Notes under the pieces: generated by a model
Seen by the model: the letters and a program-made list of their open reading frames with translations, nothing else
Databases searched by the model: none
Told to the model about the DNA's origin: nothing
Source: Streptomyces mirabilis
GTDB lineage: Bacteria; Actinomycetota; Actinomycetes; Streptomycetales; Streptomycetaceae
DNA: 64,000 bases
Assembly (NCBI RefSeq): GCF_039503195.1
Contig: NZ_JBCJKP010000001.1
Span: 7,998,001 to 8,062,000, forward strand
Reading direction: 5' to 3'
In this document: in pieces, positions 1 to 22,957 of the stretch
Numbering within the stretch: the first letter of the stretch is position 1
Layout: each line of letters starts with the position of its first letter
Made by a program: the position numbers and the translations under genes

Positions 1-438
1 ACCGACGACAGCCGCTTCTGGTCCGCGATGGACTTCCCGCACCGCCCGAAGGAATACCGCACACTCCGCACCGAAGTCCTGGTCCGTGAGGTCGGCGGCG
101 GAGGCTGGGACATCTCCTTCGACCTCTCGGGCGAGGGCTGCGCGAGCCCGCTCGCCCTCGAACTCTGCTTCCGCCCCGGCGGCACCCTGACCGGGGACGG
201 CCTCGAACCCGTCCCCGGCTCCCCGGACACCTTCCAGCTCGTCTCCGGCGAGGCCACCTACACCGTCGGCACCGACCACATCACCTTCGGCCCCGGCAAC
301 GGCAAGGGCGGCCGCCGGCCCGCGGTGGTGGACCCGGGCGAACGCTACGCCTGGCTGAACGGCTCCCTGACCCCGGACGGGGTACGGGTGCTGATCACGG
401 GGCGCTCACCGCTGACGTACCGGTTGACGCTGAGGTGA
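1..438 (+). CDS. C-terminal part of an unidentified protein (cut by the window edge)
   Basis: The frame is open from the first base, so the protein begins outside the window; 145 residues are visible. The visible part is rich in Gly, Thr and beta-strand-like patches, with a closing segment of the type GERYAWLNG...VRVLITGRSPLTYRLTL. This could be a beta-sandwich end of a carbohydrate-active or heparinase-like enzyme, but I do not recognise the family with confidence. A Met at base 28 is an internal codon rather than a convincing start, because coding quality is the same before it. The gene stops 42 bases before the MFS transporter remnant on the same strand. Confidence 0.55.
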   Translation, partial: TDDSRFWSAMDFPHRPKEYRTLRTEVLVREVGGGGWDISFDLSGEGCASPLALELCFRPGGTLTGDGLEPVPGSPDTFQLVSGEATYTVGTDHITFGPGNGKGGRRPAVVDPGERYAWLNGSLTPDGVRVLITGRSPLTYRLTLR

Positions 439-480
439 CGCTCGGGAAGCACCCTGGCCCCGCGATCGGGGAGCGAGGGA

Positions 481-1040
481 ATGCCGAGTGGACTGATCGC
501 GCTGGCACTCGGCGGGTTCGGCACAGGTCTGACCGAGTTCCTGATCGCCGGGCTGCTGCCGCAGGTGGCGTCGAGTTTCGCGGTGTCCGAGGCGGCCGCG
601 GGGCGGCTGATCTCCGGGTACGCCGTGAGTGTCGCGATCGGCGCGATCGCGCTGACCGCGGCGACGGCGCGGCTGCCCCGCAAGGCGATCCTGGTCGGCC
701 TGGTGGCGTTGTTCGTCATCGGCAACCTGTTGTCCGCTCTCGCGCCGAGCTATCCGGTGATGCTGCTCGGGCGGATCGTCGCGGCGTTGTGCCACGGCTC
801 GTTCTTCGGCATCGGCTCCCTGGTCGCCCGCAGTCTGGTCGCGCCGGAGAAGAAGTCCCGCGCGGTGGCGGTCATGTTCGCCGGGCTGACGGTCGCGAAC
901 GTGCTGGGTGTGCCGTTCGGTGCGCTGGTCGGCGAGCGCTGGGGCTGGCGAGCGGCCTTCTGGGCGGTCACCGGAATCGGCCTGCTCGCGCTGGCCGGAA
1001 TCGTCGCCCTCGTCCCCGCCGGCGCGGGAGAGAAACGGCC
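481..1040 (+). pseudogene. MFS efflux transporter, N-terminal half only
   Basis: The start is ATG 481 behind a GGGAGCGAGGGA ribosome site. The first 180 or so residues are a typical DHA1-type major facilitator half: a first helix with GLTEFLIAGLLP, then helices around residues 40-60, 75-95, 105-125, 135-155 and 160-180. A normal protein of this family has about 400 residues and 12 helices, so only the first six are left. Downstream of about base 1040 the frame continues to 1632, but it is then Arg/Pro-rich and lies antisense to the glycosyltransferase gene. The break marks the edge of the lipid cluster. A functional transporter from this fragment is unlikely. Confidence 0.8.
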
Positions 1041-1108
1041 GCCGACCCGCCGGGCCGGGACGACGGGGCCGTCGGCCGGCGGCCGGTGCTCGGTCGTGCC
1101 GTTGTCGT

Positions 1109-2305
1109 TCATGCGCCGCCTCGTGCGCGTGTCACGGCCGACCCGGCCGGCAGTGCCGCGAGGCGGGCGGCGGCGGAGGCGCTGCCGCCCGCGGCCCGGA
1201 AGGACTCCCCGACGGCCTCGGCCGCCTTCCGGTGGCCCTCGGCCGGGTCGAGGACCGTCTCGACCGCCGCGCGGATCCTGGCCGCGTCCGCGCGGCCGAA
1301 CCGCAGCCGTACACCGGCGCCCGCGTCCACGACCTGCCCGGCGACGATCGGCTGGTCGTCGCGGATCGGCGCCACGACGAGCGGGACACCGTGCCACAGC
1401 GCCTCGCACACGGTGTTGTGCCCGGCGTGGCAGACGACCGCGCCGAGCCGGGGGAGGAGGGCGAGTTGGGGTACGTGGGGGCGCAGGAGGATGTTGCCGG
1501 GAACCGGGCCCTCGACGAGGCCGCCGGGGTCGACGAGCACCGCCCGCACTCGGCCCGCCAGTCCGCCGAGCGCCAGCGTGGCCGCGTTCAGGAAACGGGC
1601 CCCGGCGTCGTTGTTGGCCGTGCCGAGACTGACCAGGACGGTGGGCAGCGGCGACGCGTCCAGCCAGTCCCAGGGGAAGTCGTCGCCGCTCGCGGGGCGG
1701 TCGGCGACGGACGGGCCCACCAGCCAGACCCGGTCGGGCAGTTCGACCGGGCCGAGCAGCGCACGGGTGGTGTACGCCAGGACGCCGTGCGGGGAGAAGC
1801 GGGGGTCCGCCGAGCCTGCCCCGTCGCAGATCCGGTTCCGCAACCGGGCCAGCAGCCCGTCCAGCCACGCCGCGACCTTCGGCATACCGGCCAGCGGGTC
1901 GACGAGTTCGGCGGAGGTGGTGGCCGAGGTCACCCAGACGCGCCCGAGGGGCTCGGCGACCAGCGCACCCGCCACCGCCTGCTGGTCGCAGACGACGACA
2001 TCGGGGTCGTACGCCTCGATCGCCGCCCGCACCCCGGGCGCCATCGCGTCCGCCAGCGGGACGAGGAAGCTCTCCCAGAGGAACTGGAACGCGGCCGGTC
2101 CCTTCAGGTCGGCGGGCCGGGAGAGTCCCTCCTCGGGGAGGGCGCAGGGGAAGACGACGGCGTCGGATCCGACGAGAGCGCGGACGAGTTCCGGGTGGCC
2201 CGCCCACGCGACCTCGTGCCCGCGCCCCGCGAGTGCCGCCGCGGTGCCCACGGCCGGGTTGACGTGCCCGACCAGCGGCGGCACCACGAACAGGAACCGG
2301 CCCAT
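1109..2305 (-). CDS. UDP/NDP-sugar glycosyltransferase (GT1/MGT type)
   Basis: The protein has 398 residues, the usual length for macrolide- and sterol-type GT1 glycosyltransferases. The N-terminal half begins with the acceptor-side Rossmann motif (VVPPLVGHVNPAVG, residues about 7-20). The C-terminal half has the nucleotide-sugar-binding signature HAGHNTVCEALWHGVP starting at His293, followed by DDQ, which usually contacts the sugar. The ATG start directly follows the TAG stop of the upstream hydrolase, so the two are probably translationally coupled. As the last gene of the lipid-synthase operon it most likely glycosylates the hydroxyl or carboxyl end of the product. The sugar cannot be predicted; no sugar-synthesis genes lie nearby. 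Confidence 0.88.
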   Translation of the reverse strand: MGRFLFVVPPLVGHVNPAVGTAAALAGRGHEVAWAGHPELVRALVGSDAVVFPCALPEEGLSRPADLKGPAAFQFLWESFLVPLADAMAPGVRAAIEAYDPDVVVCDQQAVAGALVAEPLGRVWVTSATTSAELVDPLAGMPKVAAWLDGLLARLRNRICDGAGSADPRFSPHGVLAYTTRALLGPVELPDRVWLVGPSVADRPASGDDFPWDWLDASPLPTVLVSLGTANNDAGARFLNAATLALGGLAGRVRAVLVDPGGLVEGPVPGNILLRPHVPQLALLPRLGAVVCHAGHNTVCEALWHGVPLVVAPIRDDQPIVAGQVVDAGAGVRLRFGRADAARIRAAVETVLDPAEGHRKAAEAVGESFRAAGGSASAAARLAALPAGSAVTRARGGA

Positions 2306-3112
2306 CTAGCGGGCCTCCCGCAGCGCGTGCGCCTCCTGGCCGAGCAACAGCCAGTCGCGTACGAGGGCGTACGTCTGTTGGGTGGCCTCCACCAGAACCG
2401 AGTGGCCGAGGTCCGGCAGAACGACCGTACGGCAGTGGGGGAGCGCGGCCTCCAGCATCCCGGTCTGCGCCGACAGCTTGGACGCGCCGCCGAAGATGGC
2501 GAAGACCGGGCAGCGGATCGCGGACAGGTCCTCGTCGAGGAGAGCGCTGAGCGGGATCTCCTGGGCGAGCGCGGTGTCGTCGAGCACCCGGCCCGCCGCC
2601 CGGAACGGACGGGCGTTGCGCTCGCCCGGGTTCTCCCGCAGCCACTGGGTGACCTGCTGGACCACCAGTCCGCCCTGTTCGCCGACCAGGCCTTCGTACA
2701 TGTTCCGTGCCCACGCCCGGGCCGGCGGTTCCGCCTCGATGGCGATCACGCTCGCGACCCGCTCGGGGCGGGTGGCGGCCATGGCGTACGCGACGGCGCC
2801 GCCGAAGGAGTTGCCGACGAGGTGCACCGGGCGGTCGATCACCAGCGCGTCCAGCAGTCCGTCGAGGTCGTCGACGAAGTCCTCCATCCGGTAGCCGGTC
2901 GGCGGCCGGGAGGTCTTGCCGTGCCCGCGCAGGTCGTACATGACGACGTCCAGGCCCTCCTCGGCGAGCCGCGGCGCGAGGCTGAAGTAGTAGCTGGCGA
3001 GGCTGTCGATGAGCAGGCCGTGGATGAGGACCACGACGGGGCGCGGGGAGCCGCTCTCGTGGCCCAGCCGCTGGACGTGTACGTCGATGCCGTTCACCCG
3101 CATCGTCGCCAT
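2306..3112 (-). CDS. alpha/beta hydrolase, possible chain-releasing thioesterase
   Basis: This 268-residue protein starts at the ATG one base after the ACP stop (TGACATGG). It has an oxyanion HG motif (LIHGLL, about residues 27-32), the nucleophile elbow GNSFGG with Ser102, and a late GHS with the likely catalytic His. The strand that usually carries the acid reads PVFAIFGGAS, without the expected Asp, so the acid must sit elsewhere or be lost. It lies between an ACP gene and a glycosyltransferase gene. From that context I infer hydrolysis or transfer of the finished acyl chain from the carrier protein. A tailoring esterase is the alternative. Confidence 0.8.
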   Translation of the reverse strand: MATMRVNGIDVHVQRLGHESGSPRPVVVLIHGLLIDSLASYYFSLAPRLAEEGLDVVMYDLRGHGKTSRPPTGYRMEDFVDDLDGLLDALVIDRPVHLVGNSFGGAVAYAMAATRPERVASVIAIEAEPPARAWARNMYEGLVGEQGGLVVQQVTQWLRENPGERNARPFRAAGRVLDDTALAQEIPLSALLDEDLSAIRCPVFAIFGGASKLSAQTGMLEAALPHCRTVVLPDLGHSVLVEATQQTYALVRDWLLLGQEAHALREAR

Positions 3113-3113
3113 G

Positions 3114-3461
3114 TCAGCCCACCTCCGCGACGGCCGGTGAGTCCACGACATAGCCGACGAGATCGCCGACGGTGAGCGCGATGATCTCCTCCAGCCCGCG
3201 GTCGGCGATGAACGCGGCGAAGTTGACCCGCTCGCCGTAGAACTCGCGCAGTTGGGCGGAGAGGGTGACGAGATCGATGCTCTCCAGCTCCAGGTCGTCG
3301 TGGAAGGAGGTGTCGAGGGTGATCTCGGAGTCGTCGAGCCCGTACTCCTCCAGCACGGTGCGCAGGATGGCCGAGATGTCGGCGAGCGCGGTCGCCGCGT
3401 CGGGCGCCGACGCCTGTCCCCTGTCCGACTGGCCCACGGGACGGTCGAGTTCAGTGGTCAT
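3114..3461 (-). CDS. free-standing acyl carrier protein
   Basis: The product has 115 residues. A flexible Thr/Asp/Ser-rich N-terminus of about 25 residues precedes a four-helix ACP fold. The phosphopantetheine site is DDLELESIDLV with Ser61. The LES in place of the common GxDSL is typical of some freestanding lipid and PKS carriers. The ATG overlaps the end of the upstream synthase by 11 bases (ATGACCACTGA), which argues for coupled translation. The phosphopantetheinyl transferase domain at the end of that synthase is the obvious activating enzyme. It may carry the starter, or hand the finished chain to the hydrolase or glycosyltransferase downstream. Confidence 0.88.
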   Translation of the reverse strand: MTTELDRPVGQSDRGQASAPDAATALADISAILRTVLEEYGLDDSEITLDTSFHDDLELESIDLVTLSAQLREFYGERVNFAAFIADRGLEEIIALTVGDLVGYVVDSPAVAEVG

Positions 3462-6400
3462 CTTCGTTCTCCTGATCGTTGACAGCCGTCCAGGCCACGA
3501 CGTACTCCTTGTCGCGCCCCGCGGACGGCCGGGGGGTGGTCAGCGCACAGTGCCGCACGCGGTACTCCTCGCCCGCGGTGCGGACGGTCAGCCGGTCGCC
3601 GTCGACCGAGGTGATCTCGAACCGCTTCGGCTCGCCGCCCAGTCCGGTGCCGCGCGCCTTCGCGACGGCCTCCTTGGCGGCCCAGAAGCGGGTGAACCAG
3701 AGCCGTTCGGGGGCTCCCCCGGCCGGTGGACGAGCGACGTGAGCAGCTCGCGTTCGGCGGTGGTGAGGGCCACGGCGAGGGTGCCCTCGGGGCGGTCGGT
3801 GACTTCCTCGATGTCGATGCCGCAGGGTCCGTCGACCCTGGCCATCGCCACGGCCGTCTCGCCGCGGTGGGCGATGGAGACGTGCAGTTCGGGCAGGGTC
3901 CTGCCGTAGCCGCCGGTCACGAAGGGGCGGCCGGCCGGATCGTTGCCGACCCTGACCTCGGCCGGGTAGACGGGGCCCGCCCCGGCGTCCCACATCACGT
4001 TCCGTACGGCGTCCTTGGCGGCGATCCGGCCGAGCAGCCACTGCCGCCGGCCGCGCGGGGCGTGCGCCGCGTACCGTTCGCGTTCCTCGCCCGCCAGGAT
4101 GTTGCGCATGATCAGCTCGCGGGTGGCCAGATCGGGCCACTCCTCGTGGACCAGCGCCCAGCCGCCTGGCTGCATCCGGGACAGCGTGTACCGCTCGGGC
4201 TCCCGGTCCACCTTGCGGATGCGTGGATTACTGTCGAACCGGCGGTCCTGCCAGCCGCTGAACTCCGCCCACACCCGCCCCCGATGGACCAGCTGCATCT
4301 CCGCCTCGAGGGTGGCGTCGGTGACGGAGGTGATCCGGATCAGGCACTCCAGGCGCTCGCCGGGAGCGGGGTGCGGCCCGTGGAAGCGGATCTCCTTCAT
4401 GCCGACCGGGAACACCGTCGTCCGCACCGGCTGCCGGGCCATGATCCAGTAGCCGAGGAGCTGCCCCACGTTGTCCAGCAGGGCGCCCGGAGCGGGCGGG
4501 GTGACGAGCACCCCGCGTACGTGCCGGTCGCCGACCGCGGTCAGTTCGGCCAGGCCCTGGAAGCGCGGGCCGTGGAACATCCAGCGGCGCGAGTACAGCT
4601 CCGCCGCGGTCAGCTCGGGCTTCTCCTCCCGCTCGGCGGGAAAGGTCCAGGGCTCCGGAGGTGTGAACCGGGGCCGATCCTGGGCGAGTTCGACCGTGGC
4701 GCGGGCGTAGGGGCCGAGTGAGGCGGTGACTCTGTCCGGGCCCTCGGGGACGATCCGTACGGGGATGTCGACGGCCGGAGTGGCGGTGATCCACTGGTGC
4801 AGCCGTACGTCGTGGACGGCCACCGCGCGCCGGCCCGGCGCGGCCCGCTCGGCGAACTCCATGAGATGGGCGATCACGGTCGTGCCCGGGACCACGGGCC
4901 AGCGGTCGGCGGGATCGGCCTGGGCGGGCTGCCGGAAGAAGCAGTGGTCCAGGAGGTACGGCATGGTGTCGACGGAGACGCGGAGGGTTGCTTCGAGGGG
5001 CTGGGGCTGGGGTTCGGGGGTGGCCGGCTCGGCCGTACGAAGGTCGGCGCCGTTCTTCGCAGGCGTGCCGCCCGTACGGGGGTGGGGCGGGCGCCCGGCG
5101 TCCGTACGGGGGAGGGTCGGGGCCCCGCGTCCGCGTCGCCCCGCCGTCACCACGTCCGAGGCGAGCGCCGTCGCGTCCCGCAGCAGTGCCGACAACTCCG
5201 CGCCCAGCGGGCCCTGTGCCGCCAGGTCGTCGGCCTCCTGGGGCGCGGTGTGCCGCGGCCGGGCCAGCGCGGCGCTCAGCCGCTCGCGGGTCTCCGCGTC
5301 CAGGGAGACGTTCGCGCCGCCGAGGTCCAGCCGCACGGGACGGCTCGTACGGTGGACCGTACGGGCCGCTGTGACGGTCGAGGCGCCGCCCAGCAGCGGG
5401 ACGAGGTCCGGTGCGGCCCCGTCCGCCCACAACGCGCCGGCCACACGGTGGAGTTGGGGCAGGCCCGGGCGGTGCGGGGAGTGCGCGGGGACCACGAGGT
5501 GGTCGCGGCCGTGCAGGGTGTCGTCGATGAGCGAGCCGAGCTGTCCCGCGCCGAGCTGGACGAACGCCCGGAAGCCCGCCGCGTACATCGTCTCCACCAG
5601 GGGCCGGAAGCGGACCGGCTCCAGCAGATGGCGGATGAACAGCTCGCGGATCGCGGCCGGTTCGTCCGGGTAGGGGGCGACGGTCGTCGCGGACCACAGA
5701 GGCAGCGCGGCCGGGTGCAGGGTGTAGGCCTCGGCGGCCTTCCTGATCGGGTCGAGGTAGGGCTCCAGCATCGGAGTGTGGAAGCCGGAGCGGAACGGCA
5801 GGATCTGCGAGATCACCGCCCGGGCCCTGAACACCTCGACCAGTGCGGCGACGGCGGGCTCGGGGCCGCAGATCATCGACTGGTTGGGCGCGTTGTCGTG
5901 GGAGAGGAGCACGTCACCGCGGCCGTCCAGCTCGCTCAGCACCACCTCGGAGGGGGCGCCGATCGCGGCGAAGGCCAGCCCGGGGACGCTCAGCGCGTCG
6001 GGGTCGAAGTCGGCGAGGAAGGCGTCGACCTCCTCCGGAGGGTGGATTCCGGCGGCGGCCATCGCGGTCCACTCGCCGAGGCTGTGCCCGGCGAGCGCGT
6101 CCGGGACGACGCCCAGGCGGCGCAGCGCGGCGTCGAGGAGCCGGCCGAGCTCGAAGACGCCGGTACCCTGCCGGCCCACGTCACCCACGGTGGCGTCGGT
6201 GACGGCGCGCGACCAGGGCAGCCCGAAGTGCCGGGCGACGTCCTCGGAGTTGGGCGCGAACTCGGCCTCGAGGCCGGGGAAGACGAACGCGAGCCTGCCG
6301 CCGCCGGGGCCCAGCAGGGGGCGCGGCACGAACCACACGTCGCCCCGACCGCGCCACCCCTTCCCCTTGGCGACCGCCTTGCGGGCCAGCGCAAGGCGCT

Positions 6401-8018
6401 TGGCCGTCGGCCCGACGACGGCGATCCGCACCGGATCGGTGGCGGGGGCGCGTTCGTCGAGACCGGCGCTGATGATCGCGGAGTCGGAGCGGTCGAGGAG
6501 CGCGGCCATCGCCTCGGGCGTCGGCGCGGTCAGCCGCAGCACCGGCTCCGGCTCGTACACCTCGGCCGGCCGCCGCGCGACCGCGACCTCTTCGAGCACG
6601 ACGTGCGCGTTGATGCCGCCGAACCCGAAGGCGTTGACGGCGGCCCGGCGCACCGGCTGCCGGTCGTCGGTCCGCCAGGGCAGGGCGGCGCCGATGGGGG
6701 TGAACCGGGTGCGGGCGAGCGCCGGATGCGGGTCGTCGCAGTGCAGGGTCGGCGGGAGCACCTGGTGGTGGACGGCGAGTGCGGCCTTGATCAGCCCGGC
6801 GACGCCCGCCGCGGGCATGGTGTGGCCGATCATCGACTTCACCGAGCCGATGACGGCGTCCGGCGCGTCGCCGGAGGCGTCTGCCGATGGTGGGCCGAAC
6901 ACTTCGGCGAGCGTCGTGAGTTCGGTGCCGTCGCCCGCCGGGGTGGCGGTGCCGTGTGCCTCCAGGAGGCCGATCGAGCCGGGGGCGGACGGGTCGAGCC
7001 CGGCGGCCTCCCAGGCCTGGCGGACCGCGCGGACCTGGCCGCCGGAGTCGGGCGCCATCAGACTGGTCGTACGTCCGTCGGAGGCGACGCCGGTGCCGGT
7101 GATCGCGGCGTAGATCCGGTCGCCGTCCCGCTCGGCGTCGGCGAGCCGCTTGAGGACGACGACGCCGGTGCCCTCACCGATCAGTACGCCGTCCGCGCCC
7201 CGGTCGAACGGCCGGATGCGCTCGCTCGGCGAGAGCGCGCCGAGTTGGCTGAACACGCTCCAGAAGGTGATGTCGTGGCAGTGGTGCACCCCGCCCGCCA
7301 GCATCACGTCACAGCGTCCGCTGCCGAGTTCGCGCACGGCGTGGTCGACGGCGATGAGCGAGGAGGCGCAGGCGGCGTCCACGGTGTAGGCGGGCCCGCG
7401 CAGGTCGAGCCGGCCCGCCAGCCGGGACGCGGCGAGGTTGGGCACGAGACCGATCGAGGACTCAGGTGCCTCCGGTCCGAGCCGGTCGGTGAACGCCTGC
7501 CGCACCGCCTCCAGTCGGTCGGCGCCGAGGTCCGGCAGCAGCTCGCCCAGGGTGCGCACGAGCTGGCTCGCGGTCCGCACCCGCTGGTCGAGCCGGACCA
7601 GGCCGGGGGTGAGGTAGCCGCCCCGGCCGAGTACCACACCGACCCGGTGCCGGTCGGCGGGCAGCCGGCCCTGGCCGCCCGCGTCGGCGAGGGCCGCCGC
7701 GGCCACCCGCAGCGCGATCAGCTGGTCGGGCTCGGTGGCCGGGACCGCGGCCGGCATGATCCCGAACTCGGTGACGTCCACCTCGGCCAGCTCGTCCACG
7801 AAACCGCCGCGCCGGCAGTAGACCCGGTCGGCGCGGGCCTCGGCGCCGGGCGCGTAGTACTCCTCGGCGTCCCAGCGGCCTGGCGGCACCTCGGTGATGG
7901 CGTCGACACCGGAGACCAGGTTGTGCCAGTACGTGGCGAGGTCGGGGGCGCCCGGGAAGAGCACCGACATGCCGACGATGGCGATGGGTTCGGCGCGGGG
8001 GCCGGTCACCTCGGTCAC
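3451..8018 (-). CDS. iterative PUFA/PKS-type synthase KS-AT-DH-PPTase, with one frameshift
   Basis: The GTG start at 8018 overlaps the stop of the upstream synthase by four bases (GTGA). Domains in order: ketosynthase from residue about 10 to 430 with Cys217 in DAACASSL; malonyl-type acyltransferase with GHSLGE, Ser646; a double-hotdog dehydratase with LLDHCFF, His1025, and a second half WMFHGPRFQG; a phosphopantetheinyl transferase with GIDIEE near 1398 and WAAKEA near 1442. There is no internal carrier domain. The frame breaks in the C-run/G-run pair at 3709-3720: before it the frame reads ELLTSLVHRP, after it ERLWFTRFWAAKEA continues one frame over. One extra base would give a continuous 1522-residue protein, so this is either a sequencing slip or a real mutation that removes the KEA helix of the transferase. 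Confidence 0.85.
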
Positions 8019-11000
8019 CAGCCCGACGCGGTGTAGACGACGGCGGTGTCGCCCTCGGGTCCCCAGGCCAGCTCGCGCAGCAGGCTCATGGTGCCCTCGT
8101 CGGGGTCGATGAGCTGGATACCGCGGCCCGCGTAGTGCCGCATCAGCTCGGGGGTGACCATGCCGTGGTTGCCGTCGCCGGTCGGCGCCCATGGACCCCA
8201 GTGGACGGTCAGTCCGCGGCGGCCGGTACCGGAGCCCGCCCAGCGGGCGCCGAGGGTCTCCAGGGCGTCGTTGGCGGCGGCGTAGTCGGACTGTCCGCGG
8301 TTGCCGAGGGCCGCGGCGATGCTGCCGAACAGCACGGCGAACCGGGGGCCTTCCGCGTCCGGCAACTCGCCCAGCGCGGACAGTAGTTCGCGCGCCCCGT
8401 CGACCTTCGTACGGAACACCCGGTCGTAGGACCGCGGTCTCTTCTCGGCGATCAGCTTGTCCTCGATCACACCCGCCGCGTACACGACGCCGTCGATCCC
8501 CCCGTGCTCGGCGTGGATCTCCTTCACCGCCCGGCGCACGGCGTCGCCGTCCAGCGCGTCCACGGTGCGGTAGCGGACCTCGGAGCCGAGCGCGGCGAGT
8601 GTGCGCAGGGTGGCGCGCACCTCGCGTTCGGCCTGGATCCGGCCGACCGCCCGCTCGATCTCGGCGGGGACGCGCAGCCCGCCCGCGATGAGCGCGCTCC
8701 GCAACTCACCGGCGGTGCCCGCGGCGGCGAGCGCGGGGTCCTCCGCGCCCTCGGGCAGGGCGGTGCGGCCGAACAGTTCGATCCGGCAGCGGCTCGCGGC
8801 GGCCAGCGTCGCGGCGAACCGGGCGGTGATCCCCCGGGCGCCGCCCACCAGCAGGACGACCGAGTCGGCGTCCAGGCCGAGCGCGGCGGCCTCGGCGGCA
8901 CCGTCCCCGGCCGGCCCCGCGCCCGTGCTGCCGAGCAGACCGAGCCTCTCCTCGGCCATGCGCAGTCCACGCCGTGTGCCGGGGGAGCGCAGGACGACCG
9001 GCTCGTGGTCGGGCGCGGTGAGTTCGGCGACCAGCTCCGCGGCGATGTCCTCGGGCGCGGTGCCCGGCGCGTGCTCGACGACCCGGGCGACCGTGTCGGG
9101 GTACTCCCGCGCGAGGGACCGGAAGAAGCCGCGCAGCCCGGCGGAGGCGCCCGCGGCCAGCACCCAGCGCGGGTTGCCCGCCAGCACCCGCTGGTAGGCG
9201 GGGAAGACGTCCGGCAGGACGGGCGGGGCGTCCGGCGCGACGAGGTGCACGATCCCGTCGAACTCTCCCTCGGCCGGGGGTTCTTCGGCGGTCACCGCAT
9301 GGGCGCCGTACACGGTCAGGCGGGCCGTCAGCGCCGCGGCGACCGGTCCGGAACCGAGCAGCAGGAAACTGCGACCGATCAGCAGGTCACTGGAGGGCGC
9401 CGGATCGGCGGGGGCGAGGTCGAACTCCCGCATCACGAGACGCTTGGGCGCCACGACGACGGGTTCGGGGGCGGCCGGCCCGGCTTCCGGGCCCGCGGGT
9501 TCGGCCGCCTCACCCCGGGCGCCCGCCACCAGGGCGGCGATGTTCGCGGCGGTACGGGCCTTGGTCAGTTCTTCGACGTCGGTGTCGCCGGTCGTGGTGA
9601 GGCCGAGGCGGGTGGCGAGTTGGCCGGCTATCTCGGCTCTCTTGATGGAGTCGACGCTGAGGTCGGCTTCGAGGTCGAGGTCGGGTTCGATCATGTCGAC
9701 GGGATAGCCGGTACGTTCGCCGATCACGTCGAGGACGACGGCGAGGACGGATTCGGCGGTCGGGGCGGACCCTGCGGCGGGGGCGGAAACGGGCGCCGGG
9801 GTGGCTTTCGAGCCGGTCACGCGCTCGATCAGCGCCGTGATCGCGGCGGCGGTACGGGCCTTGGTCAGTTCTTCGACGTCGGTGTCGCCGGTCGTGGTGA
9901 GGCCGAGGCGGGTGGCGAGTTCGCCGGCTATCTCGGCTCTCTTGATGGAGTCGACGCTGAGGTCGGCTTCGAGGTCGAGGTCCGGTTCGATCATGTCGAC
10001 CGGGTAGCCGGTGCGCTCGCCGATCACCTCGAGCACGACCGACAGCACCGAGCCGCCGGCCGGTACGGCCACCGCAACCGGCGCGGCGGGGGGCAGTGCG
10101 GTCACCGTCACCGAGGTGTCGGCGGGCAGCGCGGTCACCGTGACCGGAGCGTCGGTGTACGTGATCGGGGCGGCGACCGCGGGACGTATCCCCGGATCCC
10201 CTCCCAGGTACCCCAGCATCACATCCCGCTGCGCCGCGATCATCTCCCGGCTCGTGCGCAGGAACTCGCTGATCAGGGCCTCGGACCCGGTGGCCGCCGC
10301 CACCGGTCCGACCGGGCCGCTGTGGGTCACGAGGGCCTCCGGGACACGCTCGGCGGGGTGGAGTGCGGCGGCGGGGATCACGCCGTCCGCTGTACGGATC
10401 AGATGGCCGTCGACCGTCCACGCGGCGCGCCTGGGACGCGGGGCGCGGGCGTCGGCGGGGACCGCGTCCCGGCCCTGGAAGAGCCACGCGGTCCTGATGT
10501 CCGCACCGGCGACGGCAAGTTGGGCGAGCGCGGCGAGGAACCCGGCGAGACCGGCACGTCGGCCCTCCTCCAGGGCGACCGTGCGGTGCGGCCGGTCGCC
10601 GAGGACCGCACCCACCAGCCGGGTCAGCACCGAGCCGGGTCCGGCCTCGACGAAGACGCGGGCCCCGGCCTCGTACATCGCCTCGATCTGGTCGGCGAAC
10701 CGGACCGGGGAGCCGATCTGCGCGGCGAGTTCGGCCCGGATCTCCTCGGGGAGCCGCGGGTAGCGGGTGGCCGTACGGTTCGACCAGACCGGGAAGTCGG
10801 CGGGGGCGAGGGGGACTTCGGCGAGCACCTCGGCGAAGGTCTCGCCGGCCGCCGCGATCAGCGGGCTGTGGAACGCGCAGGCGACCGGGATGCGCTTGGC
10901 GCCGAGCCCCTGGGCGCGCAGTCGCTCGACGGCGGTGAGGACGTCCTCGGTGGGACCCGAAATGACCGTCTGACGGGGCGAGTTGTGGTTGGCCGTCACC

Positions 11001-14000
11001 ACCGAGTCGGCCAGGCCGGCGGCGGTGAGGGCCGCCGCGACCTCCGGTTCTCCCGCGGCGACGGCGGCCATGGTGCCGGGGTCGCCCTCGCCGGCGGCGC
11101 GCAGGATGGCGGCGGCGCGTTCGCGGCTGATGCGCAGAAGCGCGTCGGGGGTGAGGGCGCCCGCCGCGGCCAGCGCGGCCAGTTCTCCGTAGCTGTGGCC
11201 CGCGGCCATCGCCGGGCGCACGCCTGCCCTGGTCAGGAGCTGGAACGCGGCGAGCCCGGTCAGACCGAGCGCGGGCTGCGCGACGGTGGTGTCGGTGATG
11301 CGCTCCTGCTGCTCCTTGCGGCCCGTCTCGTCGAAGGCGGCCGGCGGGAAGAGAACTCGGGCCGTCGTCTCGTCGAGCCGCAGGTGGCGCTGGAGTTCGG
11401 GGAAGGCGACGAAGAGTTCGGCGAACATCCCGGGGCGCTGGCTGCCCTGCCCGGGAAAGAGCAGTGCCACGTCACCCGTCTCGTCCTCGTCGGCAGCGAA
11501 CAGGCCTTCCTTCGGGGCGTGTGCACCGGTGATCGCGCGACGCAGCAGCGTCGTCAGCTCCTCGGTGGACCCGGCGACGAAGGCGATCCAGGTCCGGGCG
11601 CCACGGGTGCCCGCGGTGCTCGCCGTGCTCGCCGTGCTCTGGGTGGTGGCGGCCTCCGCGCGCCGGGACGCGGCGAGCGCGAAGTCCCGCAGCCGCCACG
11701 GCTCGTACGGACCGGGATCCGCCTCCACGAGGGCGAGCAGTTCGCAGGCGGCCCGTACCGCCGCCGCCCGGTCCGCGCCCCGGAACGTGAAGAGCTCGGC
11801 GGGCCAGTGCTGGGCCGAGGTGGCCGGCGGCGGCCCATCCCCGTGGGCCCGCAGGACGACGTGGAAGTTGGTGCCGCCGAAGCCGAAGGCGCTGACGCCG
11901 GCCACCCGTTCGGCCGGGGCGGCGGACCAGGGGCGGGCCTCGGTGTGGAAGGCGAACGGGCTGCTCTGCGCGTCCCAGGCCGGGTTCGGCTCGGTGAGGT
12001 GCAGGGTCGGCGGCTTCACACCGGTGTGCAGGGCGAGCGAGGTCTTGATCAGTCCGGCGAGTCCGGCCGCGCACTTGGTGTGCCCGATCTGCGACTTGAC
12101 CGAGCCGAGCGCGCACGCGCCGGGTGGAGCCCCGGCCTCCTCGAACACCCGGGTGAGAGAGCCGAGTTCGGTGCGGTCACCGACCACGGTGCCGGTGCCG
12201 TGCGCCTCGACGAGCCCGACCTCGGCGGGCGAGATGCCGGCGTTGCGGTAGGCCCGGGTCAGCGCGTTGTACTGGCCCTCGGGCCGGGGCGCGGTCAGCC
12301 CGAGCGCCCGGCCGTCACTGGCGCTGCCGACGCCCTTGATCACCGCGTACACCCGGTCGCCGTCCCGCTCGGCGTCGGCGAGCCGCTTGAGGACGACACA
12401 ACCGACGCCCTCGCCGAGCGCGATGCCGTCGGCCGCGCTGTCGAAGGGCGCGGAGCGGCCGGAGGGCGAGAGGGCGTGGGCGGAGGCGAAGAGCAGGTAG
12501 TCGTTGATGCCGTTGTGCAGGTCGGCGCCGCCGCACAGCACCAGGTCGCTCGTCCCGCTCGCCAGCTCCTTGCACGCCACGTCGACGGCGGTGAGGGAGG
12601 AGGCGCAGGCGGCGTCCACGGTGTAGTTGGCGCCGCCGAGGTCGAGGCGGTTGGCGATCCGGCCCGCGATGACGTTGGCGAGGATGCCGGGGAAGGAGTC
12701 CTCGGTGAGCTTGGGCAGCTGTTCGTCCAGCGCGGGCGGCAGGCTGCCCAGGTAGGCGGGCAGGACGGAGCGCAGGGTCATCGCGTTGGACAGGTCGCTG
12801 CCCGCCTCCGCGCCGAACACGACCGACGCGCGGGTCCGGTCGAAGGACCGGCTGTCGTAGCCGGAGTCCTCCAGGGCGCGGCGCGCCGCCTCCAGGGCGA
12901 GCAGCTGCACCGGCTCGATGGCGGGCAGCGAGGCGGGCGGGATGCCGTACCGCAGCGGCTCGAAGGGGATCTCGGGTAGGAAGCCGCCCCAGCGGGAGGG
13001 GGTCTTCTCCCCGGCGCCCCGCGGATCGTGGTACAGCCCGGCGTCCCAGCGGGTCGCGGGCACCTCGGTGACGGCGTCCTCGCCCGCCAGCACGTTCGCC
13101 CAGAAGGTGGCGAGGTCGGGGGCGCCGGGGAACATGCAGGCCATGCCGATGATCGCGATGTCCAGCGGTTCGGGGGAGGGTTCGGCGGCGGGTTCCCCGA
13201 TGCCGAGGGCCTCCCGCCGCGCCGCGAGGAAGTCGGCCGCGCCGCTGGTGACGGAGGCGTGCAGCTCGGCGACGGTGGTGACGGCGGAGCGCAGCACGGC
13301 GACCTCGCCGGCCATGAACATGCCCTCCGCGAGCTGTCTGTCCTCGCCGACCGCGCTCAGCCCGCCGTCGACCCGCTCGATGCCCTTGCTGGCCAGCCGC
13401 AGCCGCCCCACGTTGAGCCGCTCCAACTGCTCCCAGGCCTCGCGGCCGAGTGTCCCGCGGGCGGCCAGGTCCTCCTTGACGGCGGCGAACTCGTCGGTGA
13501 ACGCGCTGTGGACGCAGCGGGTGGCGTGTCCGGGAGCGGTCTCCAGGAGGTCGGTGCGCTCGGCGTCGATCACCTGCCGCTGGAACAGGGGCAGCACCGC
13601 GCCCGCGCTCACGGCCTCCTCGGTGAACAGGTACGCCGTGCCCATCAGCACGCCCACGGCGGCACCCCGCGCGCTCAGCGGCGCGGCGAGCGCGGTGACC
13701 ATGGCGGCGGAGCGCTCGTCGTGCACCCCGCCCGCGAAGAACAGCTGAAGTTCGGTGGCGGTGCCGTTCTTCGCGCCCGCCAGGAAGTCGTCGAGCACGC
13801 CGAGCTGCGCCTCCCACAGCGGGAAGCTGTTGCGCGGCCCGACATGGCCGCCGCACTCGGCGCCCTCGAAGACGAACTTGCGCGCGCCCGCTTCCAGGAA
13901 CTGCTTCAGCAGCCCCGGCGACGGCACGTGCAGGAAGGTGGAGATGCCCACCTCCTCCAGCGCGGCGGCCTGCGCGGGACGCCCGCCCGCGATGATCGCG

Positions 14001-15151
14001 TGGGACGGGCGGATCTCCCGTACGACCTCCAGCTGGGCGGCTTTGATCTCCTCGGCGGCGAAGCCGAGGACGCCGACGCCCCAGGGCGCGTCGCCGAGCG
14101 CCTCCCTGGTCTGTTCCAGTACGGCACGGGTCTGGTCGGCGCCGGACAGCGCGAGCGCGATGAAGGGCAGCCCGCCGTGGCCGCTCACCTCGGCGGCGAA
14201 CGCGGCCTGGTCGCTCACCCGGGTCATCGGTCCCTGGGCGACGGGCAGTTCGCTCCCGAAGGGGCGCCCGCCCGAGGCGTCGGGGCCGAGCGAGGCACCC
14301 GCGTTCTTCGCCGGGTCGAGACCGGGACCCGCGCTCTTCAACGCGTCGAGGACGGCGTCCCGTACGCCCCGCACCGCCGCGTGGACAGTGCCCCAGCGCT
14401 CCTGGAAACGGGCGGCGAGGAAGCCGTCCTGACCGACCTCGGGGGCGGGCGTGCCCGCCTGGGCACCCCGGCGCCGTACGACTCGGCGGCCGTCCTGCAC
14501 GGTCGTCTCGGAGCCGTCGAGACCGGCGAGCAGCGCGGAGGTCCCGGCGGGCAGGTCGGCCTCGGCCTCGGCGAGCAGGGCGAGCTGGGTGTCCAGGACG
14601 ACACCGGCGCCACCGCCCGCGACGACGGCCGCCGCGGTGTGCGGGCCCGCGCCGCCGCAGGCCCAGACCGGAAGGTCCCACTCGCCGTCGTCGAGGAGCT
14701 GTTGGAGCAGTACGAAGGTGCTCAGCTCACCCACGGGACCGCCCGCCTCGTGACCCCGGGCGATCAGCCCGTGTGCCCCGGCCGCGGCGGCCCGTAACGC
14801 CTGGGCGCGGCCGGTCACCTCGACGAGTACGCGATGGCTGGGGAAGTCCGCGGGCGTGCAGGAGGCGTCGGCGGTCAGCAGCACGGTGTGGACACAGGCG
14901 GGGAGGTCCCGCGCGGGAAAGGCATCGTTGTCGCGGAGCCGTACGCCGAAACCGGCGGCCGACCATTCCTCGGCCGGCGCGAGTTCCGCCGCCGCCCGGC
15001 GCCCACCCGCGGTGAGGTCGAGCACCCCGAGGCCGCCCGCCCGTACGGCGGCCGCCGTGACCCGAGCCGAGGGGACGGCGAACGGGTTCAGGGCGATGAC
15101 GATGTCCTCTACGGCAAACAGGCCGGAAGTATCGAACTTCGACACAGGCAC
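8015..15151 (-). CDS. PUFA-synthase-like megasynthase ER-KS-AT-ACP-ACP-KR
   Basis: Chosen start is GTG 15151, seven bases after GGAG; an upstream frame extension lacks a good ribosome site. The product has about 2378 residues. Residues about 1-630 form a nitronate-monooxygenase/PfaD-like flavin enoyl reductase, with the FMN-side motif EGAECGGHVGPRNSF. Next come a ketosynthase (about 660-1100, Cys849 in DAACASSL, then VEAHGTGT and IGHTKCAAG), an acyltransferase (GHSYGE, Ser1320) and two carrier domains with Ser1735 and Ser1835 in LSVDSIKRAEI. Last is a ketoreductase (VGGARGIT near 2105; SDYAAAND near 2290). Order and motifs match bacterial polyunsaturated fatty acid synthases, except that the reductase is fused at the N-terminus. 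It probably works iteratively with the second synthase, which supplies dehydration. Confidence 0.9.
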   Translation of the reverse strand: MPVSKFDTSGLFAVEDIVIALNPFAVPSARVTAAAVRAGGLGVLDLTAGGRRAAAELAPAEEWSAAGFGVRLRDNDAFPARDLPACVHTVLLTADASCTPADFPSHRVLVEVTGRAQALRAAAAGAHGLIARGHEAGGPVGELSTFVLLQQLLDDGEWDLPVWACGGAGPHTAAAVVAGGGAGVVLDTQLALLAEAEADLPAGTSALLAGLDGSETTVQDGRRVVRRRGAQAGTPAPEVGQDGFLAARFQERWGTVHAAVRGVRDAVLDALKSAGPGLDPAKNAGASLGPDASGGRPFGSELPVAQGPMTRVSDQAAFAAEVSGHGGLPFIALALSGADQTRAVLEQTREALGDAPWGVGVLGFAAEEIKAAQLEVVREIRPSHAIIAGGRPAQAAALEEVGISTFLHVPSPGLLKQFLEAGARKFVFEGAECGGHVGPRNSFPLWEAQLGVLDDFLAGAKNGTATELQLFFAGGVHDERSAAMVTALAAPLSARGAAVGVLMGTAYLFTEEAVSAGAVLPLFQRQVIDAERTDLLETAPGHATRCVHSAFTDEFAAVKEDLAARGTLGREAWEQLERLNVGRLRLASKGIERVDGGLSAVGEDRQLAEGMFMAGEVAVLRSAVTTVAELHASVTSGAADFLAARREALGIGEPAAEPSPEPLDIAIIGMACMFPGAPDLATFWANVLAGEDAVTEVPATRWDAGLYHDPRGAGEKTPSRWGGFLPEIPFEPLRYGIPPASLPAIEPVQLLALEAARRALEDSGYDSRSFDRTRASVVFGAEAGSDLSNAMTLRSVLPAYLGSLPPALDEQLPKLTEDSFPGILANVIAGRIANRLDLGGANYTVDAACASSLTAVDVACKELASGTSDLVLCGGADLHNGINDYLLFASAHALSPSGRSAPFDSAADGIALGEGVGCVVLKRLADAERDGDRVYAVIKGVGSASDGRALGLTAPRPEGQYNALTRAYRNAGISPAEVGLVEAHGTGTVVGDRTELGSLTRVFEEAGAPPGACALGSVKSQIGHTKCAAGLAGLIKTSLALHTGVKPPTLHLTEPNPAWDAQSSPFAFHTEARPWSAAPAERVAGVSAFGFGGTNFHVVLRAHGDGPPPATSAQHWPAELFTFRGADRAAAVRAACELLALVEADPGPYEPWRLRDFALAASRRAEAATTQSTASTASTAGTRGARTWIAFVAGSTEELTTLLRRAITGAHAPKEGLFAADEDETGDVALLFPGQGSQRPGMFAELFVAFPELQRHLRLDETTARVLFPPAAFDETGRKEQQERITDTTVAQPALGLTGLAAFQLLTRAGVRPAMAAGHSYGELAALAAAGALTPDALLRISRERAAAILRAAGEGDPGTMAAVAAGEPEVAAALTAAGLADSVVTANHNSPRQTVISGPTEDVLTAVERLRAQGLGAKRIPVACAFHSPLIAAAGETFAEVLAEVPLAPADFPVWSNRTATRYPRLPEEIRAELAAQIGSPVRFADQIEAMYEAGARVFVEAGPGSVLTRLVGAVLGDRPHRTVALEEGRRAGLAGFLAALAQLAVAGADIRTAWLFQGRDAVPADARAPRPRRAAWTVDGHLIRTADGVIPAAALHPAERVPEALVTHSGPVGPVAAATGSEALISEFLRTSREMIAAQRDVMLGYLGGDPGIRPAVAAPITYTDAPVTVTALPADTSVTVTALPPAAPVAVAVPAGGSVLSVVLEVIGERTGYPVDMIEPDLDLEADLSVDSIKRAEIAGELATRLGLTTTGDTDVEELTKARTAAAITALIERVTGSKATPAPVSAPAAGSAPTAESVLAVVLDVIGERTGYPVDMIEPDLDLEADLSVDSIKRAEIAGQLATRLGLTTTGDTDVEELTKARTAANIAALVAGARGEAAEPAGPEAGPAAPEPVVVAPKRLVMREFDLAPADPAPSSDLLIGRSFLLLGSGPVAAALTARLTVYGAHAVTAEEPPAEGEFDGIVHLVAPDAPPVLPDVFPAYQRVLAGNPRWVLAAGASAGLRGFFRSLAREYPDTVARVVEHAPGTAPEDIAAELVAELTAPDHEPVVLRSPGTRRGLRMAEERLGLLGSTGAGPAGDGAAEAAALGLDADSVVLLVGGARGITARFAATLAAASRCRIELFGRTALPEGAEDPALAAAGTAGELRSALIAGGLRVPAEIERAVGRIQAEREVRATLRTLAALGSEVRYRTVDALDGDAVRRAVKEIHAEHGGIDGVVYAAGVIEDKLIAEKRPRSYDRVFRTKVDGARELLSALGELPDAEGPRFAVLFGSIAAALGNRGQSDYAAANDALETLGARWAGSGTGRRGLTVHWGPWAPTGDGNHGMVTPELMRHYAGRGIQLIDPDEGTMSLLRELAWGPEGDTAVVYTASGW
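9551..10028. repeat. tandem, nearly identical ACP-coding repeats (300-bp period)
   Basis: The two carrier domains of the first synthase lie exactly 300 bases (100 codons) apart. Bases 9551-9682 and 9851-9982 differ at a single position, including silent sites, while the linkers between them have diverged. That pattern suggests recent duplication or ongoing gene conversion of the ACP core. Both copies keep the modifiable serine. Tandem carriers are a hallmark of PUFA synthases, where extra copies raise output. Confidence 0.9.
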
Positions 15152-15479
15152 GCGAACGCTCCAAATCGCACGAGGGTGAGGATTGGCGGGGGAGAGCGGA
15201 GAGCGCTTGCGCTTCACAACAAGCCGACAGCTGATGTGAAGCACGCTCATGCTTATTGCGCATCCCCGTGAAAGTCAAACTCTCAAGGAGGCTGCCATTA
15301 CCGGACGTAACACGGTCGACACAGCCGCCGCCGAGCCAGATGCGAGCTCGCAACAGAGGCCTCGTTCCGGGGAGTTGAGGGGGTCGGTGACTGCTGGTCG
15401 GTCGGCTCCGCGCCCCCGATTCAGCCTGCGGCAATGCCTGCTGACGCAGTGTCGAACAGGGGGTCCACTTCGATCTTGC

Positions 15480-15496
15480 GGAAACGAACTGTTTCC
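15480..15496. promoter_or_regulatory. perfect 6-5-6 inverted repeat upstream of the lipid cluster
   Basis: GGAAAC-gaact-GTTTCC is an exact dyad 330 bases upstream of the megasynthase start. It sits in the only AT-richer part of a 547-base stretch (15152-15698) that I find free of convincing genes. The size fits a repressor operator of the TetR or LacI kind. The regulator is not identifiable here. Confidence 0.4.
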
Positions 15497-15632
15497 CCCG
15501 CTGTAAATTGAAACTTTCATTAGTTCCCCTCTTCATAATCAAAATTCACGGTGGGTGGAAGGGTGGGATTTCGGCACTTGAGGGTGAATGGCCACGATTC
15601 GTACTCGTCGGTAAGTTGGCTCATTTCAACAG

Positions 15633-15664
15633 CACGGCCCGGCCGCGGGAGCGGCCGGGCCGTG
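15633..15664 (-). terminator. hairpin terminator
   Basis: A 14-base-pair perfect stem (CACGGCCCGGCCGC with its complement) surrounds a GGGA loop, 35 bases downstream of the AbfB fragment stop. It lacks a long T-tract, as is usual in Streptomyces. It could also stop transcripts coming from the other side. Confidence 0.75.
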
Positions 15665-15698
15665 GCTGGATCCACAGGTGCCTGGGTGGGTCACCCGG

Positions 15699-16145
15699 CT
15701 AGAACGTCGCGTCCTCCCTGGCGGGCGCCGTGTCGGCGGGCTGGGTGTAGAGCGGGTGGTCGAAGTGCCGGAGGTAGCGGCCGGCGCCGCTGTACGACTC
15801 GAACGAGACACCGGAGTCCGTGTCGGCGAGGCCGGCTCGCCGGTAGAAGCCGGCGTCGTTCCCGAAGGCGGCGGTGCCGTCGCCCCTCTCCATCCAGACC
15901 TCGTTGTTCTTCTGGTGGAGGTAGAAGCCGGGGTGGTTGGCCGATTCGAGGGAGACGGACCCGGTCCCGGCGAGCCCGCTCACCACCCTGGACTGCGAGG
16001 CGGCCAGGTTGGTGACGTTCGGCTCGATCTTGGCGCGGAAGTCCCGGGGATGGTCATCCGACCACAGGAAGCCCCGCCGTACCGGCCCGCTCGGGATGGC
16101 GTACGCCCACCCGCCAGGGACCGCCCGCGGCCACCACGTCACCAC
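15699..16145 (-). pseudogene. AbfB (arabinose-binding) domain fragment, C-terminal end of a secreted protein
   Basis: From about base 16080 leftwards the translation matches the AbfB beta-trefoil type: VSLESANHPGFYLHQKN, AGFYRRAGLADTDSGVSFES, then GRYLRHFDHPLY. This is normally a C-terminal binding module of arabinofuranosidases and related enzymes. No catalytic domain, signal peptide or credible ribosome site precedes it, and the first 20 residues look unrelated. It is best read as the surviving end of a larger gene cut by rearrangement about 70 bases from the next remnant. The stop codon and the terminator behind it are intact. Confidence 0.7.
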
Positions 16146-16183
16146 CGGCGTTCAGGCAGAACCGCGAAGTCCCCCCACCGCTG

Positions 16184-17165
16184 AGTCCAGGTCGTCACCT
16201 TCGCGCTCGCCCTGCTCGGGCTCGTCGTGATCGGCCGGACGGTACTGCGGCGCGGGCTGAAGCCCTTCAGCGACATGGCCCACACCGCCCGCGGCATCAC
16301 CTCGCACAACCTCACCGGCTCGGCGGGGCTGGAGGCGCGGGCCGGGGGCGGGCGTGGTGGACCCGAGGTCGAGGAACTGCGCACCGCGTTCAACACCATG
16401 CTGGAGCACATCGACGACGCGCTCGCCGTCCGCACCGAGGCCGAGCAGCGACTGCGCCGGTTCGTCGCGGACGCCTCGCACGAGCTGCGTACGCCCCTGA
16501 TGTCGGTACGCGGCTACGCGGACCTCTTCCAGTACGCCGCCGCCAACGAGCCCGGGGAACGCGAGAAGCACCTGGCCCGGCTGCGCGCCGAGGCCGCCAG
16601 GATGGGCGTACTCCTCGACGACCTGCTCCTCCTCGCCCGCCTGGACGCCGCCGAGGTGGAGACACCGCTGCGGCTGGAGGACGCGGACCTGACGGAGCTG
16701 GCGCGGGAGGCCGCGGACGCCTTGCGCGCCGGGCGAGGGGAGCACGTGCTGTCCGTGACGGCCGGTCCGGACCCGGTGCGCCTGCGCCTGGACCCCCTGC
16801 GGATCCGGCAGGTCCTCGACAACCTGCTCACCAACGCCGCCATGCACACCCCGGCGGGGACGAAGGTGCGCCTGGAGGTGTCGGCCACGGGGTCGGGGCA
16901 GGCGGTGGGCGTCGGCTCGTCCGGCACGGCGGTCGTGCGGGTCTGCGACTCCGGGCCCGGGATCCCTGCCGCCGACCAGGAACGGGTCTTCGACCGGTTC
17001 TACCGCGTCGACAAGGCCCGCAGCCGCGACCGCGGCGGCAGCGGGCTGGGCCTCGCGGTCGCCCGCTCACTGGTCCGGGCACACGGCGGCACCATCGAGG
17101 TGACCAGCCGCCCCGGTTCGACGACGTTCACGATCCGGCTCCCCCTCCCGCCCGCGCTCCCGTGA
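16184..17165 (+). pseudogene. sensor histidine kinase lacking its N-terminal sensor part
   Basis: What remains begins inside the second membrane helix (FALALLGLVVIGRTVLRRGL), followed by a HAMP linker, the dimerisation helix with DASHELRTP and the ATPase domain. The phosphorylatable His is residue 85 counted from the GTG at 16227. N, G1 and G2 boxes are present as NLLTNAAMHTP, DSGPGIP and GGSGLGLAV. A stop codon lies in frame at about 16181, and no first helix, periplasmic domain or partner response regulator is found. The catalytic core is well preserved, so the truncation is probably recent. It starts almost where the AbfB remnant breaks, so one event may have cut both. Confidence 0.75.
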
Positions 17166-17216
17166 CCACGGGGGAGTACGTCCACACGGCCGCCGTCGGC
17201 TCGCTCGGCCGGTCGT

Positions 17217-17939: not shown

Positions 17940-17972
17940 GACTGTTTCTCCTTGTCGGTGTGGTGGACCCGG

Positions 17973-18944: not shown

Positions 18945-19082
18945 GGGGATCTCCTGAAGCGTTGTTCCTGGGTACGCCGGGCAGTGCTCCGGCCTCGCAG
19001 CCACGCTAGAGGCGCGGTGCGGGCGTGAATGGTCCGTCAGCGCACCGGCGTTGAACTCACAGCGCCCAACGCGTCGACCACC

Positions 19083-20054: not shown

Positions 20055-20151
20055 CCGCCGTTGCCTCCGAGTCCTGCCGAACTGTCGAGAGGAGCGACGA
20101 CGCCTCGTGGGACGGTCGTCCACTCCGCTCGGAGCGTAGGTCGGGGCGAGT

Positions 20152-22826: not shown

Positions 22827-22957
22827 GAGGACTCCCGAGGTGAGATGTCGGGCCCAGGGCCCTGACTGAGGAAATTCTCGACGTCCATGCTCGCCCTTGT
22901 GGATCGCCGGTGTCCGCGCGGTCCGGGTGTCCGCGCGGTCCGGGCGTTCGCGCGCGT

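Follow-up and report, generated by a model that had tools for sequence, protein, structure and literature searches.

What would a streptomycete make with a pair of iterative lipid synthases whose operon ends in a glycosyltransferase gene? The question is raised by five minus-strand genes (15250 to 1109) of a 64,000-nucleotide stretch of Streptomyces mirabilis DNA (contig NZ_JBCJKP010000001.1, positions 7,998,001 to 8,062,000), here called the window, which lies inside an 11.1-Mb genome. Its closest matches among named proteins and loci come from S. mirabilis and S. olivochromogenes. The results presented here show the five-gene operon, an iterative lipid synthase with a glycosyltransferase at its end, to be real and conserved. 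By its sequence the operon fits Type M of the secondary lipid synthases, a class that is known but has no product assigned to it. Its most probable product is a long-chain lipid, largely reduced and glycosylated, a reading held with confidence slightly above even; this lipid is best read as exported or placed in the envelope.

Organization and domains of the operon

The genes are co-directional and run from synthase subunit S1 through synthase subunit S2, a free acyl carrier protein (ACP) and an alpha/beta hydrolase to a GT1-type glycosyltransferase (GT). The stop of S1 (8017-8015) and the GTG start of S2 (8018-8016) share the letters GTGA, the hydrolase ATG at 3112 is one base past the free-ACP stop, and the hydrolase stop at 2306 abuts the GT ATG at 2305. 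The same gene order was found again in relatives down to ~40% identity, so the arrangement is not due to chance. These junctions and this recurrence bear out a preliminary description of the locus, which had read the five overlapping or abutting genes as one operon. Promoter and terminator scans returned 0 and 3 sites, respectively, no excess over shuffled sequence.

S1 (8015..15250, minus strand like every operon feature below) is 2411 residues long as the longest open reading frame, with GTG 15151 as a possible start, and is a predicted iterative synthase. It begins with two tandem FabK-like enoylreductase (ER) stretches. The first, residues ~40-300 (14351..15133), resembles FabK and nitronate monooxygenase (NMO); it scores 28.4 bits with PF03060 (cut-off 28) when the first 330 residues are searched, and a profile of the ER-region alignment matches FabK structures there (5gvj, E 5e-25). 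The second, residues 334-674 (13229..14251), matches TIGR03151 and PF03060, and His469 of its GGH motif is kept in 109/109 relatives. Profile matches place a ketosynthase, KS1, at residues 697-1134 (11849..13162) and an acyltransferase, AT1, at 1261-1551 (10598..11470). Their catalytic residues (Cys882, His1017 and His1057; Ser1353 and His1461) and the carboxylate-binding Arg1378 of AT1 are likewise kept in all 109. Two tandem ACPs (9530..10039, outer limits approximate) each match PF00550 and carry LSVDSIKR. Among 105 long S1 proteins the ACP motif occurs once in 67, twice in 26 and three times in 2; the remaining 10 have a variant of the motif and count as 0. The ketoreductase (KR) at residues 2131-2355 (8186..8860) matches PF08659, with Tyr2323 kept in 105/109 and Asn2327 in 104/109.

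S2 (3451..8018) has the layout KS-AT-DH-PPTase, DH being a dehydratase and PPTase a phosphopantetheinyl transferase. In KS2 (6738..7991) the catalytic Cys and each His are kept in 118/119 relatives, and in AT2 (5547..6131) Ser704 and His805 are kept in 119/119. Both profile and predicted fold assign the DH (4233..5003) to the double hot dog of the polyketide synthase (PKS) and fatty acid synthase type, and its His1083 and Asp1240 are present in all 119. The preliminary description had the KS, AT, ACP, KR and DH domains right; its single ER is replaced by the two tandem stretches, and its PPTase (3451..4034) is not intact.

The two acyltransferases differ at one position. An Arg 25 residues past the active-site Ser is presumably the malonyl-binding residue, as in FabD and PKS acyltransferases. 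It is present in AT1 of 109/109 relatives, as well as in the ArsA-like, SgcE and Streptomyces globosus PfaA-like acyltransferases, and is missing there from AT2 in 119/119, 100 of which have Phe. Malonyl loading therefore probably falls to AT1, and a different acyl group is the probable substrate of AT2. A GHSxG search gave no match in the S. globosus PfaBC-like protein or in the end fragment of E. coli FabD, which had been intended as acyltransferase controls.

The PPTase domain is frameshifted in the window genome. The main S2 frame turns to nonsense near 3719 and stops at 3588, and the PF01648 match (3496-3717) sits in a different frame, in an open reading frame that ends at 3451, where the original S2 frame would end. 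Alignment of the window with its close relatives L007 (S. olivochromogenes DSM 40451, whose cluster and tail are intact), L008 and L010, all with an intact PPTase, locates a one-base insertion or deletion near 3719 in a G/C run. This may be a true frameshift or an assembly error; the sequence cannot separate the two. The operon as sequenced is thus not equipped with its own carrier-activating enzyme, contrary to the first account of it. Of 119 S2 proteins, 99 retain both the catalytic Asp and the catalytic Glu of the PPTase; the other 20, which belong to several lineages, do not, so the domain seems dispensable in evolution. Five other PF01648 matches occur elsewhere in the window genome. The open frames that hold two PPTase-family matches on a 170-kb second contig (L001, L002) have 559 and 584 residues, long for PPTases.

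Of the three small genes, the free ACP (3114..3461) matches PF00550, and its carrier Ser61 is kept in 120/120 loci. The hydrolase (2306..3112, with a longest open frame to 3151) matches PF00561 and PF12697; its His is kept in 119/119, and its nucleophile is Ser in 108 and Cys in 11. The hydrolases with Cys are those of L067, L074, L065, L050, L073, L072, L048, L078, L054, L124 and L125.

The GT (1109..2305) is MGT/YjiC-like, and its His14 and Asp107, which we take to be the His/Asp dyad, are kept in 119/119. It matches TIGR01426 with 152 bits (cut-off 260), and its nearest enzymes are of the macrolide/YjiC type. Such a match brings up self-protection of the producer, in which the GT, perhaps with the hydrolase, would render a toxic product inactive within the cell, after the oleandomycin model. 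The GT does match the MGT, OleI and Mgt models, but weakly, its scores (152, 71 and 62 bits) falling far under their cut-offs (260, 700 and 700). Moreover, none of the five genes encodes a glycosidase able to reactivate the product, and the GT ends a tightly packed operon and is retained in distant members. Self-protection is accordingly considered very unlikely.

Relationship to known lipid synthases

Shulse and Allen (2011; PMC3098273) list Type M among the secondary lipid synthases as a type with uncharacterised products, found in Actinosynnema mirum, Frankia, Renibacterium salmoninarum and Streptomyces avermitilis. No product of Type M was among the matches listed in searches of open-licence PMC literature. 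Like Type M, the window operon belongs to an actinomycete and has an ER-KS-AT-ACP-KR fusion with a second KS-AT-DH-PPTase protein, the PPTase of the window being frameshifted. R. salmoninarum is described as having fused pfaDA-like and pfaBC-like proteins with a C-terminal PPTase (PMC13291983). The PPTases of Type M have the motifs P1a, x(G/D)xP, and P1b', hShxH, without P0, hRxhLS (PMC3098273). Read by eye in translation, the S2 PPTase has AGRP and VSIAH, and no P0 was seen in it. Proteins named S. avermitilis are 83% identical to S2 and 88-89% identical to the GT. The KS1 domains of the relatives form one clade (99/99) in a tree built without the Type M reference strains of 2011. What the window and its relatives add to Type M is the ACP-hydrolase-GT tail and the methyltransferase/ABC exporter split described below; the word 'glycosyl' is absent from the main text of PMC3098273 as retrieved.

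Judged by homology, the closest relative whose kind of product is known is Type P, the ArsA/ArsD pair of Azotobacter with its counterpart in Beijerinckia, which builds long alkyl chains for phenolic lipids. S1 is 38% identical over 2168 columns to an ArsA-like protein of Beijerinckia (plasmid pBIND02) and has the same layout, NMO-KS-AT-ACP-KR. Residues 1070-1487 of S2 are 29% identical to the ArsD-like DH-PPTase protein (E 4e-41; profile probability 100%). ArsA is reported to make C23-C25 fatty acids (PMC4824345), and behenic acid is one example of the chains found in Type P products (PMC3098273, Table 1). The two systems part in their other components. None of the five window genes is a type III PKS and the Beijerinckia operon has two KAS III-like genes, whereas S2 has an extra KS-AT and the window has the free ACP, the hydrolase and the GT1-type GT instead. 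The Beijerinckia operon is adjoined by a GT4-like glycosyltransferase, of another family, and an ABC permease (L181 967-2343).

The preliminary description had assigned the domain set to Pfa polyunsaturated fatty acid (PUFA) synthases and had proposed a glycosylated product, polyunsaturated or fully reduced. The glycosylated reduced lipid stands as the likely product; polyunsaturation by the Pfa mechanism does not. In common with Pfa and Type L synthases, the operon has an iterative KS-AT-ACP-KR core, an ER, a DH and the logic of secondary lipid synthesis. Among NCBIfam models S1 matches PfaA (TIGR02813) best, and KS1 lies near PfaA-like KS domains in the tree. The score of 934.3 bits is nevertheless under the cut-off of 1010.1, and the Type P protein of Beijerinckia, which is not a PUFA synthase, exceeds this cut-off with 1156.1 (S. 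globosus control, 2080.8). The PfaA model is therefore unspecific and does not show PUFA synthesis. The KS-CLF didomain is missing, S2 having one KS where the control has two in one protein. No FabA-like dehydratase/isomerase (PF07977) was matched by S1 or S2 at E 0.001 or by the S2 tail at 0.1 (control, 268.5 bits), and the DH of S2 is of the PKS type. The ER region gave no match to the PfaD-family model TIGR02814 at E up to 1 (control, 659.6 bits) and matches FabK instead, so an identity as PfaD-family ER was rejected. S1 has two ACPs, and most relatives one, rather than the four to six tandem ACPs of Pfa Types A and B. A glycosylated PUFA made by the Pfa mechanism is thus rejected by comparison with the S. 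globosus set, which has all three missing components, and is the least probable of the products and roles weighed here. That set, on an S. globosus plasmid (L170/L182), consists of canonical PUFA-like PfaA-, PfaC- and PfaD-like proteins beside two acyl-CoA dehydrogenases and a SARP regulator. The comparison with an EPA-like gene set of S. coelicolor, made in the preliminary description, points to a different type: Shulse and Allen assign that species to Type L (KS-CLF-DH2-AT) and place S. avermitilis under Type M (PMC3098273).

Two other iterative systems invite comparison. The heterocyst glycolipid synthases (Hgl, Type F) are alike in outline, as an iterative synthase gives the alkyl chain of a glycolipid (PMC3098273, Table 1). 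The enediyne PKS SgcE likewise unites KS, AT, KR and a PKS-type DH in one iterative system, but the window synthase is split over two proteins, not joined in a single KS-AT-ACP-KR-DH-PPTase protein, and has an ER. The KS of SgcE forms a very long branch (3.3 changes per site, placement unsure) outside the KS1 and KS2 clades. The preliminary description had asked whether the KS domains fall inside modular PKS clades. The three KS domains taken from modular or hybrid PKSs group together (100/98), and KS1 and KS2 (own clade, 100/100) each stand apart from them. HglE, Shewanella and Moritella references were not part of this tree.

Conservation of the five genes

The neighborhood of S2 was compared at 120 loci. 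Eighty are in named genomes, the best 80 of 275 confirmed relatives from a search with 24 aligned S2 relatives. The other 40 are from a class-wide sample and were picked, where there was room around the match, from 70 match rows other than the window's own; one of them (L120) duplicates a named locus (L024). Among the 80 named loci the ACP is present in 80, the GT in 80, the hydrolase in 79 (not L083) and S1 in 75, the other five being cut by contig ends. The corresponding counts for the class-wide loci are 40, 39 (not L126), 40 and 36, with four contig-end cuts. Whether the GT and hydrolase accompany homologous clusters had been named as a point on which the first proposal turned; each is present in 119/120 loci, and the ACP in 120/120.

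With the window's own genome included, S2 occurs in 54/394 genomes and 12/137 genera of the class-wide sample and in 85/295 Streptomyces genomes. A GT orthologue lies within a few kb of S2 in 20/20 S2-positive genomes of the genus, which were taken from the more similar S2 tier, and occurs in 1/20 S2-negative genomes, the first listed. The hypergeometric probability of this co-occurrence is 1.5e-10, with related genomes treated as independent. One of the 20 co-occurring GT genes (G470) has an internal stop. The S2-negative exception, G395, has a lone GT orthologue (56%; L183 14414-15580) with no synthase and with an MFS-like match nearby.

The sixth gene

Of the 80 named loci, 44 carry a methyltransferase gene and 15 an ABC exporter gene no more than 1.2 kb past the GT, and none carries both. 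With a wider methyltransferase limit of 2.6 kb past the GT, the 120 loci comprise 68 with a methyltransferase, 21 with an exporter, 30 with neither and 1 without a GT, again never with both. The count of 44/80 comes from a directed search. An antisense artefact hid the methyltransferase in a clustering of flanking open reading frames; family F0 of that clustering looks like an antisense methyltransferase reading and was not used. On an S2 tree (FastTree), methyltransferase versus exporter requires 2 changes among 89 rows. The exporter loci form two groups, family f18 and a group of the window with other Streptomyces and Pseudonocardiaceae loci. When 'none' is added as a third state, 16 changes are required, so losses of the sixth gene are common. 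The sixth gene therefore differs largely by lineage, and three f18 genomes (G100, G132 and G038) hold both kinds as separate copies of the cluster.

The three nearest relatives of the window have the exporter after the GT, whereas the window has there, on the opposite strand, the truncated 5' part of an MFS transporter gene (440..1048, plus strand; PF07690, profile positions 1-183 of 347). Window 1-439 corresponds to L007 18891-19329 and window 1049-2400 to L007 15605-16954; between these junctions L007 has the ABC exporter and the window has ~610 bases of MFS gene that end halfway through the family profile. Relocation of the exporter within the genome was also considered. At 49% identity and with a stop inside, the best match to the L007 exporter elsewhere in the window genome speaks against this, and the exporter of this lineage seems absent. 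Nothing else in the genome closely resembles the MFS fragment; the nearest stretch is 69% identical over most of its length.

The replaced exporter and the frameshift near 3719 suggest that the window copy may be decaying and yield little product or none, whatever the product of the family as a whole. Yet its remaining catalytic residues match those of the family, and the indel, a single base within a G/C run, could have arisen in assembly. The incomplete PPTase of 20/119 relatives, the five PF01648 matches elsewhere and the lack of both exporter and methyltransferase after the GT in 14/31 rows of the window's own clade argue in the same direction. Decay is a serious possibility for this copy, if the less probable one. 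Given the broken PPTase and the lost exporter, the window copy may need a PPTase acting in trans and another transporter, or may not work.

Mobility, patchiness and a possible secreted metabolite

A six-gene operon with mostly overlapping genes is also found on two linear Streptomyces plasmids (L166 and L167; 869 and 846 kb) near IS3 transposases, which indicates that the operon can move. On L166, from Streptomyces sp. NBC_01243, the six genes, a methyltransferase gene among them, span 10991-25965. The mobility, together with the patchy occurrence in the genus (85/295), is what might be expected if the product were a secreted glycosylated polyketide-like metabolite that is partly unsaturated, or bears a head group made by KS2-AT2, and serves as an antibiotic or signal and not as a membrane lipid. 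The MGT-like GT, the exporter past the GT in 21/120 loci and a flanking family recognised by eye as MFS-like (10/80 loci) are also consistent with secretion. On the other hand, the closest characterised kin build long alkyl chains, and the reductive set is full, with its residues kept. In addition, the commonest family of flanking open reading frames reaches no more than 11/80 named loci (families unannotated; ~3 kb upstream and ~7 kb downstream covered), so that, the methyltransferase masked by the antisense artefact aside, no larger conserved cluster shows. A secreted metabolite of this kind is therefore unlikely, though clearly less so than self-protection or a PUFA.

A role in nitrogen-fixing vesicles was also considered. 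The six genomes tested from family f18, which may be Frankia-like to judge by nifH in two of them, all contain the cluster. The nifH match is over the cut-off in G038 and G088 and not in G100, G132, G111 and G324. As these four still carry the cluster, such vesicles were rejected as its general role.

Proposed pathway and product

From gene content and order, conserved catalytic residues, homology and co-occurrence, all directly observed, we infer chemical steps, chain length and product. AT1 would load malonyl units onto the ACPs of S1. KS1 and KR of S1, DH of S2 acting in trans and the tandem FabK-like ER would then iterate to give a saturated or nearly saturated chain, as modelled on the homologous ArsA/ArsD pair of phenolic lipid synthesis. 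KS2-AT2 would add a different condensation or transfer, bringing in a special starter or passing the completed chain on to the free ACP. From this ACP the alpha/beta hydrolase would free or transfer the chain, and the GT would add a sugar to it. The product may then be methylated in some groups and moved by the ABC exporter in others; the window copy nests in an exporter group.

Several observations weigh against a glycosylated, largely reduced lipid. We know of no product for any member of the family, and iterative programming is unreadable from sequence. A polyketide head group or a partly unsaturated chain is another conceivable output of the free ACP, the hydrolase and KS2-AT2, and GT enzymes of the macrolide/YjiC kind, to which this one is related by sequence, glycosylate many acceptors. 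An Arg occurs near the AT2 position at +23 in 13/119 and at +26 in 4/119, and a shifted malonyl-binding Arg is possible in those rows. Single loci depart from the common set as well: L126 has no GT match, L083 has no hydrolase match, and no ACP-KR match was found in L077.

Flanking genes

Upstream of the operon, window 16227-17165 encodes a histidine kinase (HisKA and HATPase_c), the listed open reading frame being the kinase part only; DNA similar to this region was found at the edge of L008. Further along, a gene for an AraC-family regulator overlaps one for a SARP-type regulator with BTAD, NB-ARC and TPR domains (22029-25903), and a cytochrome P450 gene adjoins a pyridine-nucleotide oxidoreductase gene (29091-31695).

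Significance for Type M

The evidence that the ACP, hydrolase and GT belong to the core of Type M, with a sixth gene that varies by lineage, is new. It is tempting to go further and propose, tentatively and with more doubt than confidence, that Type M represents a widespread, undiscovered class of actinomycete glycolipids. Such lipids would have an ArsA/ArsD-type saturated chain and a non-malonate contribution of KS2-AT2, followed by hand-over to the ACP, release by the hydrolase, glycosylation, and methylation or export depending on lineage. They would be made by ~29% of the sampled Streptomyces species and by Frankia-like genomes with and without nifH, and would have a general role in the envelope or in development rather than in nitrogen-fixing vesicles. 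The results warn against labelling Type M loci as PUFA synthases. Importantly, the ACP-hydrolase-GT core turns the expectation of some lipid into a testable prediction, that Type M operons would make a glycosylated long-chain lipid that is methylated in some groups.

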